Source of the DNA: Henriciella aquimarina
GTDB lineage: Bacteria > Pseudomonadota > Alphaproteobacteria > Caulobacterales > Hyphomonadaceae
Length of the DNA: 64,000 nt
Direction: 5' to 3'
NCBI RefSeq assembly: GCF_002088975.1
Contig: NZ_NCST01000027.1
Coordinates: 1-64,000, forward strand
Positions 24,718 to 42,858 of the stretch are shown here, piece after piece; positions within the stretch are counted from its first letter, which is position 1; each line of letters opens with the position of its first letter. The notes beneath the pieces were generated by a model. That model ran no database searches. It was not told the DNA's origin and saw nothing but the letters and a program-made list of their open reading frames with translations. Position numbers and translations under genes: made by a program.

Positions 24718-25460
24718 CCGCCCGGTTTGACCTTTATCCCGCCATCGACCTCAAGGATGGCCAGTGCGTGCGCCTGCTACGCGGCGAGATGGACCAGGCG
24801 ACCGCATTCAATCCGGATCCGGCCGACCAGGCGGCCAAATTCATGGCCATGGGGTTCGACCGGCTGCACGTTGTCGACCTGAACGGCGCCTTTGCCGGCA
24901 ACAGCGCCAATGGCGATGCCGTGCGCGCCATCCTCAAGGCAACGCAGGTACCGGTCCAGCTGGGGGGCGGCATCCGCACGCGCGCCCAGATCGATGCCTG
25001 GCTCGAGGCCGGTGTGGCGCGCGTCATTCTCGGCACTGCCGCGCTGCGCGACCCGGAACTCGTCAAATCGGCCGCGCGCGATCTGCCCGACAGCATCGTC
25101 GTGGGCATCGATGCGAAGGATGGCTATGTCGCTGTCGAGGGCTGGGCGGAAACCTCCGACATGAAAGCCGTGGAACTGGCGAAAATCTTCGAAGGCTGCG
25201 GAGTGGCGGGCCTTGTCGTGACCGACATTTCCCGCGACGGCATGAAAACCGGGGTAAATGTGGAGTTTACCAGTGAGATGGCCGAAGCTGTTTCGATTCC
25301 CGTGATTGCCTCTGGCGGCGTGGCCAGCCTTGATGACATACAAAACCTCATGAACGCCGGTAGCCGACATGCAATTTCGGGCAGCATTCTCGGGCGAGCC
25401 CTCTATGATGGCGACATCGACCCGGCAGCCGCGATTGCTGCTGTGAAAGGCGGGCTGTGA
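24714..25460 (+). CDS. hisA: ProFAR isomerase
   Basis: 248 residues, (beta/alpha)8 barrel. The N-terminal catalytic Asp lies in [14 protein letters not shown]; half-barrel phosphate-binding repeats are GGGIRT and [10 protein letters not shown], and the second catalytic Asp is in [12 protein letters not shown]. HisA performs the Amadori isomerisation of ProFAR to PRFAR in histidine synthesis. It overlaps hisH (ATGA) and its stop overlaps the hisF start (TGATG). Confidence 0.97.
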
Positions 25461-33100: not shown

Positions 33101-33930
33101 CCATAGCCTCGTCTTTCATTGAGCTTGTTCAGAATTGCCGCGGCCGTTTCTTCCACACTGCGCCGGGAGACATCAATCATCGGCCACTTCTTGCGCTGGA
33201 ATAGCCGGCTGGCCTGTGTGACTTCAGCGCGAACCGATTCCTCATCGGTGTAGTCAGTGGTCGAGGTTTCATTCAGAGCGATGAGGCGCTGACTCCGGAT
33301 CTGCACAAGCCGGTCGACCCCAATCTTGAGCCCGATCACGAGTGGCCCATTTGTGCCGTCGAGCTCATCGAGAACAGGCGGGGGCGGCACGCCCGGCACA
33401 AGCGGGATGTTGCCAGCCTTTACGCCCCGGTTCGCGAGATACACACAGGTCGGTGTTTTCGAGGTCCGGCTGACGCCGACCAGGACGACATCGGCGTGCA
33501 CCAGGCCCTGTAAGTTCTGCCCGTCATCATGGGCCAGGGCAAAGTTGATTGCCTCGATCCGCTCGAAATATTCCTGATTCAGGGCATGCTGTCCGGCCAC
33601 CCGGTCTGTTGCCGCAACACCGAGATGCCGGCTGAGCAGGTGGATGGAGGCATCGAGGACCGCCAGGACCGGGATCTGGTGCGTGCGACAGAACTGCTCG
33701 AGTTTCATGCGCAGCGTTTCATCGGAAATGGTGAACCACACCACGCCAGGGGCCGCTTCGATGTCGCGCATCACCCGCTCGAGCTGGCGTTCGGAACGGA
33801 CCAGATAGTAATTGTGTTCAAGCGGAATGACATTTTCGAACTGCGCCGCGGCCGCCCGCATCACAGCATTGAGTGTCTCGCCCGTGGAATCGGAGACGAG
33901 ATGGACATTGAAGTATATGCTTGGGCGCAT
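33097..33930 (-). CDS. ppsR: Pyruvate,water dikinase regulatory protein (RP001/DUF299 type)
   Basis: 277 residues from ATG 33930; the frame continues to 34032 into the origin region but the family begins MRPSIYFNVHLVSDSTGET. The P-loop-like GVSRTSKTPTCVYLA is the active-site motif of these bifunctional ADP-dependent kinase/Pi-dependent phosphorylases, which switch PEP synthase or pyruvate phosphate dikinase off and on. It is the first gene of the leftward origin-flanking operon, the alphaproteobacterial equivalent of RP001. It overlaps maf by 4 nt. Confidence 0.95.
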   Translation of the reverse strand: MRPSIYFNVHLVSDSTGETLNAVMRAAAAQFENVIPLEHNYYLVRSERQLERVMRDIEAAPGVVWFTISDETLRMKLEQFCRTHQIPVLAVLDASIHLLSRHLGVAATDRVAGQHALNQEYFERIEAINFALAHDDGQNLQGLVHADVVLVGVSRTSKTPTCVYLANRGVKAGNIPLVPGVPPPPVLDELDGTNGPLVIGLKIGVDRLVQIRSQRLIALNETSTTDYTDEESVRAEVTQASRLFQRKKWPMIDVSRRSVEETAAAILNKLNERRGYG

Positions 33931-34055
33931 CTTTCCCCCGGCCGGTTCGTGGTCGCTGGAAAGTGCAGCGTCCCGCAGGAATCGACAACCCCTGTGGACA
34001 GGCTGTGGGCGGACAATTTTACCCACATCCATTCACCCGAAATCCACATGTGGTC

Positions 34056-34075
34056 GAATCCAACAGGCTGGATTC
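34056..34075. repeat. Perfect 7-bp inverted repeat in origin region
   Basis: GAATCCA-N6-TGGATTC. Each arm contains a GANTC methylation site (GAATC, GATTC), so a dimeric binding protein here would be methylation-exposed. It lies between a DnaA-like box and the second inverted repeat. Confidence 0.6.
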
Positions 34076-34080
34076 CTCAC

Positions 34081-34101
34081 CTGTTCCGAAACCCGGAACA
34101 G
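34081..34101. repeat. Perfect 8-bp inverted repeat in origin region
   Basis: CTGTTCCG-N5-CGGAACAG, 5 bp after the preceding inverted repeat and 9 bp before the first CtrA-type site. It could be a hairpin or a protein-binding palindrome; no T-tract follows, so it is not an evident terminator. Confidence 0.6.
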
Positions 34102-34110
34102 CCTAAATGG

Positions 34111-34125
34111 TTAATGCTAAATTAA
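34111..34125. promoter_or_regulatory. CtrA-type binding site 1
   Basis: TTAA-TGCTAAA-TTAA, an exact match to the TTAA-N7-TTAA consensus for the cell-cycle regulator CtrA. In Caulobacter, CtrA bound at the origin represses replication initiation and can also control hemE transcription. Confidence 0.75.
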
Positions 34126-34141
34126 CGGCGAATCCAAAGGG

Positions 34142-34156
34142 TTAAATAAGGATTAA
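34142..34156. promoter_or_regulatory. CtrA-type binding site 2
   Basis: TTAA-ATAAGGA-TTAA, a second exact consensus match, 16 bp after site 1 (31 bp centre to centre, about three helical turns), so both would face the same side of the helix. A GANTC site (34157-34161) directly abuts it. Confidence 0.75.
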
Positions 34157-34284
34157 GATTCACCGCTGTGTTGGACTCCCTGTGGATTTCATGGTGACAA
34201 GTGCGGCTGAGACGGTTTGTCCACGATATCCAGCGCTTAGTAATGATAAGAGCGCACTCATTGAATGATTTTGAAGAGGCCCGA

Positions 34285-35328
34285 ATGGCAGACGCCACGC
34301 GAAAACCGCTTTTGACTGTTCTGAATGGAGAGCGGTGTGACCCTGTTCCCATCTGGATGATGAGACAGGCAGGCCGACACCTGCCCGAATATATGGAGCT
34401 TCGCTCCAGGGCGAAGGATTTCCTCGATTTCTGTTACACCCCCTCTCTCGCGACCGAAGCGACGCTTCAGCCGATCCAGCGCTATGACATGGATGGGGCG
34501 ATACTTTTCGCAGACATTCTGCTCGTACTGGATGCACTGGGACAGGGTGTGCGGTTCGAGAAAGGCGTTGGGCCGATCGTCGAACCGATCGAGCCGGGTC
34601 AGCGGTTGAACAAGGTGCCGGTTCAGAAAGCGGTCGAGCGGATGTCGCCGGTCTTCGAGACCGTTTCGCGGGTCAAGGGCAAGCTTGATGAGAGCAAGAC
34701 CCTGATCGGCTTTGCCGGTGCGCCCTGGACGGTTGGGCTTTATGCCATTGAGGGCCGGGGCGGCACCGACAAGAAGACAGCGCGCCTGTGGGCGCATCAG
34801 GATCCGGCGGGTCTGGACCTTGTCCTGGATGACCTGGTCGAGGTTACGGCGCATTACATGGCCGGCCAGGTCGAGGCAGGGGCTGAAGCGCTGATGATGT
34901 TCGAGTCGTGGGCTGAAGGTCTGCCCGACGATGTGTTCGAACAGATCGTGATGGGCCCGAACCGGAAGCTGGTCATGCGGTTGAGGGAACTTGGCGTCGA
35001 TGTGCCGATCATCGGTTTTCCGCGCGGGGCGGGCAGTCTGCTTCCGGTTTATGCCGAAGTGACCGGGGTAAATGCGGTTGGCCTGGACACCGCGGCGCAT
35101 CCGCCTTTCATCAATCGCGAGCTGCCGCAGGATTTTCCGGTTCAGGGTCACCTCGATCCGCTCCTTCTGCTCGCGGGTGGTGAACGCATGGAGCGCCGGG
35201 TTCTGGACCTGATCGAGGCCTATCAGGACCGGCCGCATATCTTCAATCTGGGGCACGGCGTCCTGCCGGAGACCCCGATCAAACATGTTGAGCGCGTGGT
35301 GGAACTTGTTCGCACGCGCGCCAGCTAA
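34285..35328 (+). CDS. hemE: Uroporphyrinogen decarboxylase
   Basis: 347 residues. PVPIWMMRQAGRHLPEYMELR is the N-terminal signature with substrate-anchoring Arg residues; DGAILFADILLVLDALG carries the catalytic Asp, and GFPRGAGSLLPVY the second signature. HemE decarboxylates four acetate side chains of uroporphyrinogen III in heme synthesis. The start at 34285 follows GAAGAGG by 6 nt; the frame is open back to 34201 but that part lies in the origin region. hemJ follows in 30 bp. Confidence 0.96.
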   Translation: MADATRKPLLTVLNGERCDPVPIWMMRQAGRHLPEYMELRSRAKDFLDFCYTPSLATEATLQPIQRYDMDGAILFADILLVLDALGQGVRFEKGVGPIVEPIEPGQRLNKVPVQKAVERMSPVFETVSRVKGKLDESKTLIGFAGAPWTVGLYAIEGRGGTDKKTARLWAHQDPAGLDLVLDDLVEVTAHYMAGQVEAGAEALMMFESWAEGLPDDVFEQIVMGPNRKLVMRLRELGVDVPIIGFPRGAGSLLPVYAEVTGVNAVGLDTAAHPPFINRELPQDFPVQGHLDPLLLLAGGERMERRVLDLIEAYQDRPHIFNLGHGVLPETPIKHVERVVELVRTRAS

Positions 35329-35358: not shown

Positions 35359-35781
35359 ATGTATCTCTGGATCAAGGCGTTCCACGTCATCTTCGTTGTT
35401 GCCTTCATGGCCGGTATGCTCATCCAGCCGCGCTACAAGCTGCACCAGCAGACATCGACGCCCGGCGAACCGCTTTTCGAGGCCATGAAGAGCGCGTCGA
35501 ACAAGCTCAGGCATATCATCCTGACCCCGTCCATCATTCTGGTCTGGGTATTGGGGATCGCCATGGTCGTGATCAATCCGGCCCTGATGGAACAGGGCTG
35601 GTTTCACGTGAAACTCCTGCTGGTCCTGATCCTTACAGGCCTGCATGGCTATTTCGTTTCAGTGGGCAAGAAGATCGACCGTGGGGAAACCGTTCCATCG
35701 AAGCGATTGAAACTGATGAATGAAGTCCCATTTATCCTTTTCATCATCGTCGCCATCATGGCCGTGGTGAAACCCTTCTAG
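35359..35781 (+). CDS. hemJ: Protoporphyrinogen IX oxidase HemJ (UPF0093/CopD-like)
   Basis: 140 residues with four membrane helices. LWIKAFHVIFVVAFMAGML contains the conserved His of HemJ, followed by Arg in QPRYKLH and NKLRHIILTPSIILVWVLG. HemJ oxidises protoporphyrinogen IX in organisms lacking HemG/HemY. ATG 35359 has AAAGG 8 nt upstream; a GTG at 35350 is less well placed. Pairing with hemE supports the role. A parS-like palindrome (35601-35614) is embedded, encoding FHVK. Confidence 0.93.
   Translation: MYLWIKAFHVIFVVAFMAGMLIQPRYKLHQQTSTPGEPLFEAMKSASNKLRHIILTPSIILVWVLGIAMVVINPALMEQGWFHVKLLLVLILTGLHGYFVSVGKKIDRGETVPSKRLKLMNEVPFILFIIVAIMAVVKPF
35601..35614. other. parS-like site 1 (in hemJ)
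   Basis: Perfect 14-bp palindrome GTTTCACGTGAAAC, the core of the ParB-binding parS consensus TGTTTCACGTGAAACA; the outer bases are G and T rather than T and A. About 1.4 kb from the origin candidate. Confidence 0.75.
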
Positions 35782-35795
35782 TCTGAAGGCCGGGC

Positions 35796-35824
35796 TTGAC
35801 GAGTGATCTCCACAAGATCATAAG
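35796..35824 (+). promoter_or_regulatory. Candidate housekeeping promoter for rho
   Basis: TTGACG, 17 bp, CATAAG, about 100 bp upstream of the rho start. The -35 is strong; the -10 is a moderate match. Confidence 0.45.
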
Positions 35825-35839
35825 CGAGCCTGAGGCAAA

Positions 35840-35858
35840 GCGGTCCGTCCTGGACCGC
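35840..35858 (+). promoter_or_regulatory. Hairpin in the rho leader
   Basis: A perfect 7-bp stem GCGGTCC/GGACCGC with a 5-nt loop in the presumed rho 5' leader, 67 bp before the start codon. No T-tract follows. Rho synthesis is commonly autoregulated by attenuation in its leader, so a role there is possible but unproven. Confidence 0.4.
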
Positions 35859-35925
35859 ATACAACATCCATTTAGAATGAAATTCGTTGCTCCCTGAATG
35901 GAGCAGCAGTTCATCCAGAGTTCCC

Positions 35926-37227
35926 ATGTCCGATATCGTCATCGAATCCGAAAACGACTCCAGGCGCCATGTCTATCTGCGCGACCTGAAGGTCAAAAGT
36001 CCGACCGAGCTGCTGGCTTATGCCGAGAGTCTGGAAGTCGAAAACGCGTCCTCGCTGCGCACCCAGGATATGCTTTATGCCATCCTGCGGGAGCTTGCCG
36101 AACGCGACATCACGATTATCGGCCGCGGCGTTCTCGAAGTCCTTCCGGACGGGTTTGGTTTCCTCCGGTCGCCGGAATCGAACTACCTGCCCGGGCCGGA
36201 CGACATCTATGTCAATCCGAAGCTCTTGAAGCAGGCCGGCCTGAAAACCGGTGATACGGTCGAAGGCCCGATCAAGGAGCCAGGCGAAGGCGAGCGTTAC
36301 TTTGCCCTGATGAGCGTAAACTCGATCAATTTCGAGGAGCCGGACAAGGCGCGCCAGAAGGTCCACTTCGACAACCTCGTTCCGCTTTATCCGGAAGAAC
36401 GTCTCCATATGGAGACCAATGATCCGACCAAGAAAGACCGGACCGGTCGCGTCATCGATATTGTCGCGCCGATCGGCAAGGGTCAGCGGGCGCTCATTGT
36501 TGCGCCGCCGCGCACCGGTAAGACGGTCATCCTGCAGAACATCGCGGCGTCTATCGAAGAGAACCATCCGGAATGCTATCTCATCGTCCTTCTGATCGAT
36601 GAGCGCCCGGAAGAAGTGACCGACATGAAGCGCTCGGTCCAGGGTGAGGTGATTTCCTCGACCTTCGACGAGCCGGCAACGCGTCACGTGGCTGTCGCCG
36701 AAATGGTGATCGAGAAAGCCAAGCGGCTGGTCGAGCATGGCCGCGATGTTGTCATCCTGCTCGACTCGATTACGCGTCTCGGCCGTGCCTATAACACGAC
36801 GGTTCCGAGCTCCGGCAAGGTGCTGACGGGTGGTGTGGATGCGAATGCGCTGCAGCGTCCCAAGCGCTTTTTCGGCGCGGCGCGGAACGTCGAGAATGGC
36901 GGGTCGCTTACCATTATCGCAACGGCGCTCATCGAGACCGGCTCGCGCATGGACGAAGTGATCTTCGAAGAGTTCAAGGGCACGGGTAACTCCGAAGTCG
37001 TGCTTGACCGCAAGATTGCTGACAAGCGGACCTTCCCGGCCATGGACATCATGAAGTCCGGCACCCGGAAGGAAGAGCTCATCACGCCGAAGGAGCAGCT
37101 GCAGAAGGTGTACATCCTTCGCCGCATCCTGAACCCGATGGGCACCTCGGATGCGATGGACTTCCTGCTCGACAAACTCCGTCAGACGAAGACGAATGAC
37201 GAGTTCTTCGAGGCCATGAAGAACTAG
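35926..37227 (+). CDS. rho: Transcription termination factor Rho
   Basis: 433 residues. The N-terminal RNA-binding domain has the helical [15 protein letters not shown] region and the RNP-like [21 protein letters not shown]; the ATPase domain has P-loop [11 protein letters not shown] and Walker [17 protein letters not shown], with the Q-loop/R-loop region [13 protein letters not shown]. Rho is the hexameric helicase that ends transcription of untranslated RNA. The start at 35926 gives the standard MSDIVIES N terminus. mnmE begins 3 bp after the stop. Confidence 0.97.
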
Positions 37228-37230
37228 GCC

Positions 37231-38556
37231 ATGGCAGACGCGCGCGATACGATCTGCGCGCTTGCCTCCGGGCCGCCGCCAGCCGCGATTGCCATTGTGC
37301 GGATCAGCGGACCAAGGGTCCGCGAGATCTGTAGCGCGGTGTTCGAAAAAGGTGTCCCGGCGCCCCGCCACGCTGTCTTCGGCAGGTTCCTAGACGTTTC
37401 ACGTGACACAATCGATGAAGGCCTGGGGCTCTTCATGCCCGGGCCGTCCTCCTACACGGGCGAAGATACCGCGGAACTTTATCTGCATGGCGGCGCCGCG
37501 GTGATCGACCATGCACTGGATACGCTTTGCGCTTTCCCCGAAACGCGCCTGGCAGAGCCCGGCGAATTCACAAGACGCGCTTTCGAGAATGGCCGGCTGG
37601 ATCTTGTCGAGGCTGAAGGTGTCGCTGACCTGATCGACGCAGAAACGCGGGCTCAGAAATCACTGGCGCTCGACCAGCTCGACGGACGCCTCTCCGATCA
37701 ATATGCGGCCTGGCGGGTGGATCTCGTCAATGCGCTTGCGCTGCTCGAAGTCAGCATCGACTTTCCGGATGAAGAGGATGCGCCGGATGAGACGAGCGAT
37801 CCGGTCCGTGAGAAGCTGGAATCCATTCAGGCCTCGCTCGAGCAGGCACTGGATGATGAAGCCATTGGTGAGCGGATCCGGGATGGCTTCCGGATTGCGA
37901 TTGTCGGACCGCCAAATGCCGGCAAGTCGTCGGTCCTGAATCGCTTGGCGCGGCGGGAAGCAGCCATCGTGTCGGATATACCCGGCACGACCCGTGACAT
38001 TGTCGAGGTTCGCCTGAAGATAGGCGGTCAGATTGCATGGGTTGCCGATACGGCGGGCTTGCGCGAAGCGAGCGATGCGATCGAAGCAGAGGGGGTCCGG
38101 CGCGCGCGGGAAAGGGCGGCGGCTGCCGATTTGCGGATCCAGCTTCGCTCAGCCGATACGCGGCCGGATTTCCACGAAGCGGAGAGCGGCGACCTGCTTG
38201 TCCTCAACAAGACAGACCTTAGCGATGACGTCACGGTGCCCGAGGGTGGCCTGGCAATTTCTTCGCTGAGTGGCGACGGCTTCGAGGCGCTGGAGACGCG
38301 GCTTGCCGAAATCATCCGGGCAAAAGCCGGAGCCTCCGCGGCACCGCTGATTACCAGACGTCGTCACAGGGTGGCGCTCGAACAGGCGCAGTTTCACGTG
38401 AAACAGGCCCTCGATCTTCAGGCGCGCGGCGGAGGCGCGGAACTCGTTGCGGAAGATGTGCGCCTGGCTTCGCGCCAGCTCTCAGCCCTGATTGGCGAAA
38501 TCGGGGTTGAGGAAATCCTGGGCGCCGTCTTCTCTTCCTTCTGTATCGGGAAATGA
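37231..38556 (+). CDS. mnmE: tRNA modification GTPase MnmE
   Basis: 441 residues. The N-terminal folate-binding domain (DTICALASGPPPAAIAIVRISG, PSSYTGEDTAELYLHGG) is followed by a helical domain with an inserted G domain: G1 GPPNAGKSS (about 228), switch II DTAGLRE, G4 NKTD. The C-terminal FCIGK carries the catalytic Cys. With MnmG it installs carboxymethylaminomethyl groups on wobble U34 of tRNAs. Two parS-like sequences are embedded (37396-37409 imperfect, 38391-38404 perfect). Confidence 0.97.
   Translation: MADARDTICALASGPPPAAIAIVRISGPRVREICSAVFEKGVPAPRHAVFGRFLDVSRDTIDEGLGLFMPGPSSYTGEDTAELYLHGGAAVIDHALDTLCAFPETRLAEPGEFTRRAFENGRLDLVEAEGVADLIDAETRAQKSLALDQLDGRLSDQYAAWRVDLVNALALLEVSIDFPDEEDAPDETSDPVREKLESIQASLEQALDDEAIGERIRDGFRIAIVGPPNAGKSSVLNRLARREAAIVSDIPGTTRDIVEVRLKIGGQIAWVADTAGLREASDAIEAEGVRRARERAAAADLRIQLRSADTRPDFHEAESGDLLVLNKTDLSDDVTVPEGGLAISSLSGDGFEALETRLAEIIRAKAGASAAPLITRRRHRVALEQAQFHVKQALDLQARGGGAELVAEDVRLASRQLSALIGEIGVEEILGAVFSSFCIGK
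37396..37409. other. parS-like site 2 (in mnmE, one mismatch)
   Basis: GTTTCACGTGACAC, one mismatch from the 14-bp core palindrome; encodes VSRDT. The mismatch makes it the weakest of the six sites. Confidence 0.55.
38391..38404. other. parS-like site 3 (in mnmE)
   Basis: Perfect GTTTCACGTGAAAC core followed by A, as in the full 16-bp consensus; encodes FHVKQ. Confidence 0.8.
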
Positions 38557-38632
38557 GTCCGGCCCCTGTGTTTTGTGGGGCAGATGATGTATAGCGGCGC
38601 CCTTAGCGTACAGAAGCAGAGGAAGCAGCCAA

Positions 38633-40507
38633 ATGCCCGGTGCATTTGATTTCGATGTGATTGTTGTCGGCGGCGGACATGCCGGTTGCGAAGCGGCGAC
38701 GGCTGCGGCGCGGGCCGGCGTACGCACGGCACTGGTGACGCACAAGCTCGCAACGATTGGCGAGATGTCCTGCAACCCCGCGATTGGCGGGCTTGGCAAG
38801 GGCCATCTCGTCCGCGAGATTGATGCCCTCGATGGTGTCATGGCGCGCATGGCCGACAAGGCGGGCATCCAGTTCCGGCTGTTGAACCGCTCCAAGGGCC
38901 CGGCTGTCTGGGGCCCGCGCGCTCAGATTGACCGTAAGCTCTATCGCGAAGCGATGCAGGCCGAGCTTCAGGATTATCCGAACCTCACCCTGATCGAAGA
39001 TGGCGTAGAGGATCTTATTGTCGAAGATGGTCGCACCGCTGGTGTGATCGGTCAGACCGGTGGGACTTACCGGGCCGGCGCCGTCGTCATCACGACGGGC
39101 ACATTCCTGAAGGGGATCATCCATCGCGGCGAAGAACGCATAGAAGCCGGGCGGATTGGTGAAAAGCCGGCCATTGGTCTTTCCGATCGCCTCTATGCGC
39201 TGGAGCTACCCATGGGCCGGCTCAAGACGGGTACGCCTGCCCGCCTCGACGGATCAACGATCGATTGGGACCGCCTGGAAAAGCAGCCGGCCGATGAGGA
39301 GCCCGTTCCGTTTTCCTTCATGAGTGACCGGATCGAGGTGCCGCAGATCGCATGCGGGATCACTTATACGAATGAAGCGACCCATGACATCATTGCCGAG
39401 AACCTGAATAGTTCAGCGGTCTATTCCGGCGCGATTGCCGGGAAGGGGCCGCGCTATTGTCCGTCGATTGAGGACAAGGTTTACCGCTTTGCGGACAAGA
39501 CTCGCCATCAGATCTTTCTGGAGCCAGAAGGCCTGGATGACGATACGGTCTATCCGAATGGAATTTCGACATCGCTTCCCATCGATGTCCAGGAAGCTTT
39601 CGTCCGCACGATTGAGGGCCTGGAAAATGTCCGGATTATCCAGCCCGGCTATGCGATCGAATACGATTATGTCGATCCGCGCGCGCTAAATCACGGGCTT
39701 GAGGTAAAAGTCCTGCCGGGTCTTTTCCTGGCTGGCCAGATCAATGGGACGACGGGATATGAAGAAGCCGGCGCCCAAGGCTTGGTTGCCGGTCTGAATG
39801 CGGCGCGGCATGTGCGTGGGCTGTCGGCGGCACGCTTTGATCGCGCCGAAGCCTATATCGGGGTTCTTATTGACGATCTGGTCACGCGTGGCGTGACGGA
39901 GCCTTATCGCATGTTCACATCGCGGGCCGAATACCGGCTTGCTCTAAGGTCCGATAATGCCGACCAACGCCTGACACAGCGTGGCATTGAGCTTGGACTT
40001 GTCCAGGAAAAGCGAGCCGCGATGTTTCACGTGAAACATCAGGGTCTCGAATCCGGACGTTCGCTTCTGAAAGATCTTGTGCTGACGCCGAAACAGGCGG
40101 CCGGCCATGGCTGGAAGGTCAATCAGGATGGCCAGCGCCGTTCGGCCTGGGACTATCTGGCATACCCGGATATTGGGTTCGAGCACATAGAAGCCGCGTT
40201 CCCGGAAGTGTCTTCCATCAGTGTTGCAGACCGGGCTCAGCTCGCGATCGAAGCAACCTATGCCGGTTATCTTGAGCGGCAGAAGGCTGATGTTGAAGCG
40301 TTGCGCCGGGACGAGGCGCTGGAAATCCCTGCCGATTTTGATTTCGCAAGCGTTGGTGGCCTGTCGAATGAGGCGCGCGCGAAGCTCGAAGCCGTTCGTC
40401 CATCCACACTTGGCCAGGCGGCACGGATCGAAGGCGTGACTCCCGGCGCGCTCGTTTCGCTTCTTGCCCATGTGAAGCGGCGCAAACCCCAGCGCGCTGC
40501 GAGTTAG
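38633..40507 (+). CDS. mnmG: tRNA uridine-5-carboxymethylaminomethyl modification enzyme MnmG
   Basis: 624 residues. FAD-binding [12 protein letters not shown] (13-24), the active-site [22 protein letters not shown] with its Cys, [15 protein letters not shown], and the C-terminal helical domain ending in YAGYLERQ and a SLLAHVKRR tail. It binds FAD and NADH and works with MnmE. Spacing to rsmG is 2 bp. A perfect parS palindrome (40023-40038) lies in the insert region, encoding MFHVKH, a residue string seen at this place in other alphaproteobacteria. Confidence 0.97.
40023..40038. other. parS-like site 4 (in mnmG)
   Basis: TGTTTCACGTGAAACA, exact 16-bp match to the parS consensus; 5.9 kb from the origin candidate. 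Confidence 0.9.
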
Positions 40508-40509
40508 GC

Positions 40510-41130
40510 ATGACAGAAAACGAAGCCCGGCAAGCGCTTGCCGATCTCGATGTTTCACGTGAAACACTCGACCGCCTGGAGCGGCTCGTGGCCCTGCTCG
40601 ATGAATGGCGTCAGCGGATGAACCTGATTGGTCCGCGGGAAATGGACCAGATCTGGGCGCGGCATGTTTTCGACAGCGCACAGCTCATCCCCTTGGTCAC
40701 CAGACAGTCGCGTATTCTGGATATTGGATCGGGCGCCGGATTCCCGGGACTGGTCCTTGCGTGTCATGTGGCTGAGGGAGACGGCTCCGTGATATTACTG
40801 GAGTCGGTCGGAAAGAAGTGTGCCTTCCTCTCCGCAGCGATATCGGAGCTGGCGCTTCCTGCGAAGGTGCTGAACAAGCGCATCGAATCCGTCGAGGCCG
40901 GAACTGTCGACTTTGTTACAGCCCGCGCGCTCGCGCCGTTGCGAAAACTTCTGGACTATTCCGCGCCCTGGCTGCTTCGCGGGGCGACAGGTCTATTTTT
41001 CAAGGGGGAACACTGGCGAGAAGAATTGACGGAAGCCTCGGAATACTGGAATCTCGCCTATGAGGCGATTCCGAGTCGCACCAGCGAAACCGGGGTTATT
41101 CTTAAGATAATGGAGGCGCAACGTGTCTGA
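40510..41130 (+). CDS. rsmG: 16S rRNA (guanine527-N7)-methyltransferase RsmG
   Basis: 206 residues. RQRMNLIGPREMDQIWARHVFDS precedes the SAM-binding motif ILDIGSGAGFPGLVLA; VTARALAPL is the conserved catalytic-domain strand. It methylates G527 of 16S rRNA. It overlaps parA by 8 nt. The segment LDVSRETLDRL is encoded by a perfect parS palindrome near the start of the gene (40551-40566). Confidence 0.95.
   Translation: MTENEARQALADLDVSRETLDRLERLVALLDEWRQRMNLIGPREMDQIWARHVFDSAQLIPLVTRQSRILDIGSGAGFPGLVLACHVAEGDGSVILLESVGKKCAFLSAAISELALPAKVLNKRIESVEAGTVDFVTARALAPLRKLLDYSAPWLLRGATGLFFKGEHWREELTEASEYWNLAYEAIPSRTSETGVILKIMEAQRV
40551..40566. other. parS-like site 5 (in rsmG)
   Basis: TGTTTCACGTGAAACA, exact 16-bp consensus match, 528 bp after site 4; encodes VSRET. 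Confidence 0.9.
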
Positions 41131-41938
41131 TTCCGGCACCCGTATCCTGGCTGTGGCCAATCAAAAAGGCGGGGTCGGTAAGACCACGACCTCAATCAAT
41201 CTCGGGACGGCCCTTGCGGCGGTCGGACGCCGAGTTCTGGTTGTCGATTTCGATGCCCAGGGGAATGCGTCGACAGGGCTCGGCATCATGCGTGCCGACC
41301 GCCGGCTGACGAGTTACGATGTTGTCGTGGACCGCATGCCGCTTGAAGAAGCGATCATGCCAACCTTGGTGCCGCGTCTTGAGATCGTGCCCGGGGATGA
41401 AAACCTCTCCGGTGTCGAGACGGAGCTGGCCGAAGATCCGCGCCGCTCCTACCGCTTGCGCGAAGCGATCCATGATTATGTCGAGCGCGCCGCGAACGAT
41501 CCGGAAAAGCGCTATGATTTTATCCTGATCGACTGTCCGCCCTCGCTTTCATCCCTGACGATCAATGCGATGACCGCAGCTGACGCGCTTCTCGTGCCTC
41601 TGCAGTGTGAGTTCCTGGCGCTCGAAGGCTTGAGCCAATTGCTGCGGACGGTCGAGGTCGTCCGGTCGGGGCTCAACCCGAAACTCGATATTCAGGGCGT
41701 GGTCCTGACCATGTTTGACCGGCGCAACAATCTCTCGGACCAGGTGGCCGATGAAGTGCGCAACGTTCTTGGCAACAAGGTTTACCGGACGGTCATACCG
41801 CGGAATGTCCGTCTGTCCGAAGCGCCGAGTTTCGGTAAGCCGGCTCTTCTATATGATTATCGCTGCCCCGGCAGTGAGGCCTATATTCGCCTGGCCTCGG
41901 AAATGCTTCAGCGAGAACGAGCAAGGCAGGTGGCCTGA
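41123..41938 (+). CDS. parA: Chromosome partitioning ATPase ParA
   Basis: 271 residues from GTG 41123 with GGAGG 6 nt upstream. The deviant Walker A KGGVGKTTT (15-23) with signature Lys, VVDFDAQGNAST and ILIDCPPSL are the ParA/MinD motifs. The ATP-dimer binds DNA nonspecifically and pulls ParB-parS complexes apart. It overlaps rsmG by 8 nt and its stop overlaps the parB ATG (TGATG). Confidence 0.97.
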   Translation: MSDSGTRILAVANQKGGVGKTTTSINLGTALAAVGRRVLVVDFDAQGNASTGLGIMRADRRLTSYDVVVDRMPLEEAIMPTLVPRLEIVPGDENLSGVETELAEDPRRSYRLREAIHDYVERAANDPEKRYDFILIDCPPSLSSLTINAMTAADALLVPLQCEFLALEGLSQLLRTVEVVRSGLNPKLDIQGVVLTMFDRRNNLSDQVADEVRNVLGNKVYRTVIPRNVRLSEAPSFGKPALLYDYRCPGSEAYIRLASEMLQRERARQVA

Positions 41939-42858
41939 TGGCAACCGAACCGAAGTCCAAATCCAGCCGTCTCGGCCGCGGCCTCTCCGCCTTGATCGGG
42001 GAGGTCGAAGGCGCGTCCAGTTATGAGAGCGCGCCGGAAGAGGCCGAAACTGTTTCACGTGAAACGTCGACCATCCCGATCAAGGATGTCCGTCCGAACC
42101 CGCAGCAGCCTCGGCGCTATTTTGCCGAGGCGGATCTGGCCGAACTGGCTGAATCCATCCGGGCGAAGGGTGTTCTCCAGGCGATCCTGGTGCGCCCGGA
42201 TCCGAAGGATAATGGCAAGTATCAGATCATCGCCGGCGAGCGCCGCTGGCGGGCCGCCAAGCAGGCCGGCCTCAGTGATATTCCGGCGACGATCCGCAAT
42301 CTGGATGAACTCGAACTGCTTGAAGTCGGGATTATTGAGAACGTCCAGCGGACGGATTTGAATCCGATTGAAGAAGCCGAGGCTTATGGCGCGCTTATGA
42401 AGCGGTTCGGCCGGACCCAGGAGGGGCTCGCCGAAAGCGTTGGCAAGAGCCGTGCGCACATCGCGAATACAATCCGGCTGCTACAGCTTTCAGAGACGGC
42501 CCGCAATCACCTTCGTGAAGGCCGGATTTCAGCCGGCCATGCCAGGGCCGCCTTGGGGGCGGCAGACCCGGATGCTGTCGTTGCGATGGCGGTCCAGAAA
42601 GGCTTGAGCGTTCGCGAAGTGGAAGCGCTGGTCAAGCGCGGCCGCGACGACGGCGCGATGAATACAATCGCGAAAAAGGTTTCGGCCGACGAAAAGGACG
42701 TTGATACTGAAGCGTTGGAAGCGGATCTGTCTCGGGCCCTGGGCCTGCCAGTGGATATACGTCACAAGGCCAATGGCGGTGAGCTACGTATCAAGTACCG
42801 GGATCTGGAACAGCTGGACGATCTCTGCCGCAAGCTTACGGCGAAGCGACAGGCCTAG
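41938..42858 (+). CDS. parB: Chromosome partitioning CTPase ParB
   Basis: 306 residues. The N-terminal ParA-contact segment RLGRGLSALIGE (11-22), the CTP-binding boxes with GERRWRA (100-106) and ENVQRTDLNPIEEA, a helix-turn-helix KSRAHIANTIRLLQL that reads parS, and a C-terminal dimerisation region. ParB loads at parS and slides as a CTP clamp, forming the segregation complex. A parS-like site lies within its own 5' region (42051-42066). It overlaps holA by 23 bp (convergent). Confidence 0.97.
   Translation: MATEPKSKSSRLGRGLSALIGEVEGASSYESAPEEAETVSRETSTIPIKDVRPNPQQPRRYFAEADLAELAESIRAKGVLQAILVRPDPKDNGKYQIIAGERRWRAAKQAGLSDIPATIRNLDELELLEVGIIENVQRTDLNPIEEAEAYGALMKRFGRTQEGLAESVGKSRAHIANTIRLLQLSETARNHLREGRISAGHARAALGAADPDAVVAMAVQKGLSVREVEALVKRGRDDGAMNTIAKKVSADEKDVDTEALEADLSRALGLPVDIRHKANGGELRIKYRDLEQLDDLCRKLTAKRQA
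42051..42066. other. parS-like site 6 (in parB)
   Basis: TGTTTCACGTGAAACG, 15 of 16 consensus bases with a perfect 14-bp core; encodes VSRET. It is the most origin-distal site, 7.9 kb away, and could allow ParB to influence its own transcription. Confidence 0.85.

Follow-up and report, generated by a model that had tools for sequence, protein, structure and literature searches.

The ppsR-hemE gap and its motifs

The window is a stretch of 64 kb, the first part of a 140,947-bp contig in the draft genome of Henriciella aquimarina (4.34 Mb, 132 contigs). It contains a 354-bp intergenic gap dividing two divergent gene blocks, exactly at the coordinates given by the initial annotation, in which the gap was proposed as a candidate chromosome origin. 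The flanking genes are confirmed by Pfam: the minus strand carries ppsR (PF03618), maf, aroE, coaE and a DnaQ-type exonuclease, the plus strand hemE (PF01208), hemJ (UPF0093), rho, parA and parB. The closest named relatives of this ppsR are found in Henriciella mobilis (94% identity) and H. pelagia (90%). The gap edges follow from our own reading of the starts of ppsR (33930, minus strand) and hemE (34285, plus strand). Open frames entering the gap, e.g. 33529-34125 (plus) and 34160-34537 (minus), and longer versions of ppsR and hemE with starts farther upstream were discounted as a matter of judgement; conservation upstream of the two starts is invisible to the queries, since these begin at the chosen starts.

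A gene of the ppsR/RP001 type is part of the neighbourhood of Cori in Caulobacter crescentus. The same position, between hemE and such a gene, is occupied by the gap in the window, and hemE adjoins ppsR in 97 of the 99 loci examined. In the available part of PMC6650430, hemE is likewise placed at the flank of Cori. The 64-kb window contains no structured RNA (Rfam, gathering thresholds), tRNA or tmRNA, and a scan for sigma-70-type promoters, the type covered, gave no match in 33800-34400, where 0.6 would be expected by chance.

The features of the gap and of the adjacent segregation region are collected in Table 1. For the motif counts the left edge of the gap was taken as 33934, 3 bp inside the true edge. 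The concentration of CtrA-type sites, GANTC sites and DnaA-like boxes noted in the initial annotation is borne out by the shuffle controls. The 64 kb contain no perfect CtrA site besides the two in the gap, and none of 2000 dinucleotide shuffles of the gap contained two. Perfect sites paired at a distance of 5-30 bp are present once in the 4.34 Mb genome and in two of six genomes searched, both times in the ppsR-hemE gap. The six GANTC sites compare with a mean of 0.59 per 351-bp window and were reached by 2 of 2000 shuffles; their density is equalled at one other place in the window, near 40.7 kb. The DnaA-like boxes with at most two mismatches to TTATCCACA/TTGTCCACA number eight, three with one mismatch and five with two; none of 2000 dinucleotide shuffles reached eight, and one reached three one-mismatch boxes. 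In sliding windows across the 64 kb, the densities of DnaA boxes and of CtrA sites peak only at the gap. The absence of perfect boxes agrees with the earlier description of a weak-box origin with every box one or two bases off; this is true of the window and does not extend to the genus, as a perfect TTRTCCACA box is present in 9 of 29 congeneric gaps.

Table 1. Positions of the gap, its predicted motifs and the nearby segregation elements in the window.
Feature	Position	Strand	Details
ppsR-hemE intergenic gap, proposed chromosome origin (oriC, Cori-type)	33931..34284		354 bp
Six GANTC (CcrM-type) sites	33979..34178		starts 33979, 34056, 34071, 34130, 34157, 34174
Left pair of DnaA-like boxes	33985..34016	-	33993-34001 CTGTCCACA; 34008-34016 TTGTCCGCC
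DnaA-like box TTACCCACA	34019..34027	+	1 mismatch
DnaA-like boxes AAATCCACA and TCGACCACA	34040..34057	+ and -, respectively	left arm of inverted repeat
AT-rich tract enclosing both CtrA sites	34105..34165		GC 0.34
CtrA site 1, perfect TTAA-N7-TTAA	34111..34125		predicted from sequence
CtrA site 2, perfect TTAA-N7-TTAA	34142..34156		predicted from sequence
DnaA-like box AAATCCACA	34181..34189	-	right arm of inverted repeat; passes in 31/57 aligned gaps
DnaA-like box TTGTCACCA	34192..34200	-	2 mismatches
DnaA-like box TTGTCCACG, box 1 of proposed unwinding module	34217..34225	+	passes in 38/57 aligned gaps
Second weak box ATATCCAGC, abutting box 1	34226..34234	+	3 mismatches to TTATCCACA
Proposed DnaA-trio run	34237..34248	-	top strand TTA GTA ATG ATA; bottom strand four NAN triplets
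Six parS-like sites	35600..42066	+	at 35600, 37395, 38390, 40023, 40551, 42051; two perfect
parA and parB	41123..42858	+	Pfam

The inverted repeat and the AT-rich tract described earlier are also recovered. The arms of the repeat (34039-34058 and 34171-34190) are 80% complementary, and the lowest GC content, 0.30, lies at 34111-34160, compared with 0.51 for the whole gap. For the IHF site, a feature of Cori-type origins, the gap has a single putative match, at 34227, with one mismatch. A hairpin-like stretch at 34081-34101, CTGTTCCG...CGGAACAG, was considered as an element and dropped, as relatives share its first arm (CTGTTCC) only.

GC skew, parS sites and mapped origins

The minimum of cumulative GC skew had been predicted at about 34.1 kb of the window. 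A two-level fit places the change point at 34,100, the skew being -0.002 on its left side and +0.027 on its right, and the right arm is still positive in three further stretches of the same contig (C22). The raw cumulative minimum of the window, on the other hand, falls off the gap, at 25,097, a consequence of the nearly level left arm. Two closed congeneric genomes were sampled at 20 places, each 20 kb long, and more densely around the orthologous gap. By interpolation, their cumulative skew is lowest at 1,175 kb vs. the gap at 1,181 kb (G017, about 6 kb apart) and at 2,900 kb vs. the gap at 2,914 kb (G028, about 14 kb apart), and a two-arm fit breaks at the sample adjoining the gap.

Genome G070 is very likely that of Hyphomonas neptunium, an assumption made from its two perfect parS sites, as published. 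Its skew, taken from 16 samples, is scrambled along the chromosome; interpolation puts the minimum 1.03 Mb away from the gap and the maximum at 1.85 Mb. This pattern suggests large rearrangements and makes skew alone unreliable in Hyphomonadaceae. The same genome resembles the window at the corresponding locus, where it has a 347-bp gap with a one-mismatch CtrA site at the corresponding offset and a run of four triplets with an 11-bp spacer.

The six parS-like sites of the window (at most three mismatches) compare with 0.13 expected. With at most one mismatch, 46 sites were found in 15 genomes, eight of Henriciella including the present one and seven from elsewhere in the family, with 2 to 5 sites per genome; all of them are found on the hemE side of the gap, no more than 10 kb away (15/15 genomes). 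A control with the backward pattern gave one match in G000 and zero in the other 14 genomes. The six sites of the window fall inside coding frames, among them hemJ and parB as identified by Pfam; the remaining frames are, from their translations, presumably mnmE (two sites), gidA and gidB.

In H. neptunium the marker frequency follows a bell-shaped curve with its maximum near hemE, and parAB lies about 7 kb off; no clear answer came from skew, dnaA or DnaA sites, according to the available part of PMC6650430. A CtrA ChIP-seq peak adjoins that origin in the corresponding part of PMC7200025. The mapped maximum and the adjacent CtrA binding indicate that the origin of Henriciella belongs to a known kind. 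The likeness includes the place beside hemE, the distance of about 7 kb to parAB and the parS sites upstream (PMC6650430, available part); the Henriciella locus differs in its two perfect CtrA sites, its larger number of parS sites and a skew that can be read. A literature search found nothing on the origin of replication of Henriciella.

Cori of Caulobacter crescentus has GANTC sites. It also shares the hemE flank with the gap. CtrA sites and weak DnaA boxes are common to both; in the accessible text of PMC4468827 the boxes of Cori are of two classes, and its CtrA sites number five, compared with the two of Henriciella. In the same text, a review from 2015, origins with CtrA sites are confined to Caulobacter species, with the possible exception of Rickettsia prowazekii. 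This contrasts with the perfect CtrA site carried by 56 of the 75 gaps read in the present family.

Conservation of the gap and of the triplet run

The gene ppsR was found in 60 of 61 genomes in the first search and in 103 of 105 genomes of the family, and the gap was read in 75 of these 103. From 24 genomes of other families, 22 usable gaps were obtained (in G045 hemE is absent from the fetched stretch, and in G050 the contig ends there). The gap length is 341-361 bp in genera g1, g2, g5, g8 and g9. The perfect CtrA sites of the 75 family gaps number 68, compared with 0.70 in shuffles, and 19 gaps are without one; two CtrA sites with at most one mismatch lie 20-40 bp apart in 57 of the 75. 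For GANTC the figures are 461 and 131 in shuffles. In the other families 13 of 22 gaps have a perfect CtrA site (18 sites vs. 0.37 in shuffles). There, gap length and CtrA positions are unlike those of Henriciella, and the offsets show no correspondence between Hyphomonadaceae and the other families of the order, so that common descent of the sites is not claimed beyond the family. As the compared genomes are related, all these counts overstate the number of independent observations. In the g3 gaps (L037, L146, L149-L151) the CtrA pair is situated at about position 272/300, nearer to hemE, while in g1, g2 and g5 it is found in the middle of the gap.

An alignment was made of 57 gaps, those of genera g1, g2, g5, g8 and g9; the other 18 family gaps, poorly alignable, were left out by choice and are counted in the motif and module statistics. 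The best-conserved 12-mers form three blocks, at 33985-33996, 34238-34249 and 34178-34189. The first is overlapped by the left pair of DnaA-like boxes, the second belongs to the triplet run and the third to a DnaA-like box. The aligned position 34004-34012 passes as a box (at most two mismatches) in 42 of the 57 gaps, and not in the window itself.

The triplet run lies 11 bp from the weak box at 34217-34225, and the spacer contains the second weak box. The middle T of the triplets, at 34238, 34241, 34244 and 34247, is kept in 57, 55, 55 and 57 of the 57 gaps (96-100%), all four together in 53; for the runner-up run on the triplet strand the figure is 6 of 57. The variable positions are 34237, 34239, 34240, 34243 and 34245, i.e. 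the first base of triplets 1-3 and the third of triplets 1 and 3. Conservation at the non-middle positions 34242, 34246, 34248 and 34249 equals that of the middles, which means that the block is conserved as a whole and not in its register alone. Some variants keep the register, such as CTA ATA ATA ATA in g2 and TTA ATC ATC ATC in two g8 genomes, and purer repeats are present in G061 and G062 (CTA ATA ATA ATA) and in G035 and G114 (ATC ATC ATC). The 57 rows have no alignment gap between box 1 and the triplets, and the spacer is accordingly fixed at 11 bp. Box 1 itself passes the two-mismatch limit in no more than 38 of the 57 gaps.

The rule for the basal unwinding system (BUS, DnaA-boxes plus DnaA-trios), in the available part of PMC8287927, allows a box up to two mismatches, places it 0-16 bp from the triplets (peak 10-13 bp) and asks for at least three NAN triplets, and the perfect trio, 3'-GAT-5', corresponds to 5'-CTA-3' on the complementary strand (PMC8235120, also available in part). 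The window resembles a BUS in its box with two mismatches to TTATCCACA, the tandem weaker box, the 11-bp spacer within the published peak, the four NAN triplets and the orientation published in the accessible text of PMC8287927. It is unlike a BUS in its triplets, which are AT-rich and rarely GAT (C stands at the first position in 20 of 57 gaps), and in exceeding chance clearly, at four or more triplets, in the core genera only. The match in the window has a box of two mismatches, 11 bp and four triplets; of 300 shuffles, 16% contained some match with a box of up to two mismatches and three or more NAN triplets within 16 bp, and 1% scored as high as the window. With our own implementation of the published rules, a box, spacer and at least four triplets were found in 38 of the 57 core gaps, vs. 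2.9 expected; 37 of these lie at the hemE end on the plus strand, 36 of them with the 11-bp spacer. Elsewhere the module is near chance at four or more triplets (3 of 18 other family gaps vs. 1.2 expected, and 3 of 22 gaps from other families vs. 1.5). At three or more triplets there is an excess (9 of 18 vs. 3.7 and 12 of 22 vs. 4.6, respectively), scattered over various places and both strands, and the module is therefore not claimed outside the core genera.

In all 22 g5 gaps read (L033, L127-L144, L163-L166), a hairpin-like CCCTG[A/T]CGGG, often followed by a T-rich stretch, lies between the triplets and hemE. It is found in none of the other gaps read, is absent from the window and looks like an intrinsic terminator.

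Proposed functioning of the origin and alternative readings

The skew switch, the parS cluster and the dense, conserved motif clusters are features read directly from the DNA. Together with the conserved length and content of the gap and the marker-frequency mapping in a sister genus, they support the candidate put forward in the initial annotation, and the ppsR-hemE gap is almost certainly the chromosome origin of Henriciella aquimarina. A chromosomal origin, with the mechanism proposed below, is with high confidence the best explanation of the locus.

In the proposed mechanism, DnaA would load on two clusters of weak boxes, at 33985-34057 and 34181-34234. Starting at the tandem weak boxes (34217-34234), it would extend over the bottom strand of the triplets at 34237-34248, and the duplex would open at the hemE end of the gap. 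Phosphorylated CtrA, bound to the central sites (34111-34156) between the DnaA clusters in the AT-rich tract, would silence the origin. The methylation of GANTC by CcrM (and GcrA) may report a just-copied origin; DnaA, GcrA and a CcrM-type RAMA protein are encoded in the genome. Subsequently, ParB on the parS sites 1.3-7.8 kb away would move the new origin. Judged from the sequence, CtrA is likely to act as a repressor here, and unwinding at the triplet run is somewhat probable. The chances are about even that several genera of Hyphomonadaceae share a fixed two-part origin, in which the hemE end bears a DnaA-trio module, strict in its middle-base register and relaxed in its triplet sequence, and a CtrA pair stands between the two DnaA clusters. 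If this design is true, the control of the origin by CtrA would be old and family-wide and not an oddity of few Caulobacter species. What is new is the anatomy, i.e. the two conserved DnaA-like boxes and the run of four triplets, although the module in Hyphomonadaceae may be printed elsewhere. It gives Henriciella, and by alignment its Hyphomonas relatives, an origin at the level of single bases, with a short candidate opening site and a CtrA block.

A different place of opening is conceivable, though on balance doubtful, in which the gap is the origin, the TTARTAATGATAAG block is a promoter or leader element of hemE and the duplex opens in the AT-rich CtrA tract at 34105-34165. The hemE start lies 36 bp beyond the end of the block, the GC minimum of the gap falls within that tract, the match to GAT is poor and several non-middle bases are as conserved as the middles. 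Against a leader element stand the nearly invariant triplet middles amid the five variable positions, the purer repeats in some genera (G035, G114, G061, G062), a spacer fixed within the peak published for BUS (PMC8287927, available part) and, as weak evidence, the lack of a promoter match in 33800-34400.

Two further explanations place the origin elsewhere. In Caulobacterales, CtrA and GANTC sites also mark promoters, and the divergent genes ppsR and hemE need them, so the gap might be a mere promoter region co-regulated by CtrA, GcrA/CcrM and DnaA. CtrA binding at promoters is indeed reported in the available part of PMC7200025. This explanation is very unlikely, since it leaves the skew switch at 34,100, the parS cluster in 15 of 15 genomes, the eight DnaA-like boxes and the conserved gap length unexplained and is opposed by the marker-frequency maximum near hemE in H. 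neptunium (PMC6650430, available part); the sigma-70-type scan weighs a little against it too, within the one promoter type covered and with 0.6 matches expected by chance.

Origins adjacent to dnaA are common in bacteria, and one dnaA gene was found in the genome, which would make its surroundings the other possible site. An origin there, named in the initial annotation as the finding that would contradict the gap, is extremely improbable on the distances, skew samples and dnaA contig covered. The distance from dnaA to the gap is 396-547 kb in five congeners and 77-605 kb in seven family genomes (77 to about 660 kb across the 14 genomes checked). The samples adjoining dnaA in G017 and G028 contain no skew switch that lasts; in G017 a weakly positive value (+0.007) was obtained from one sample lying between dnaA and the gap. 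In the present genome, dnaA lies on a 10.5 kb contig that lacks CtrA sites and contains a single DnaA box at a limit of one mismatch.

Besides dnaA, genome G000 has 21 weak Bac_DnaA matches, on contigs C105-C114 and others, several of them sharing an offset although they lie on different contigs. These matches are presumably IstB-type transposition ATPases, and those at identical offsets are either insertion-sequence copies or shared assembly ends of the draft.
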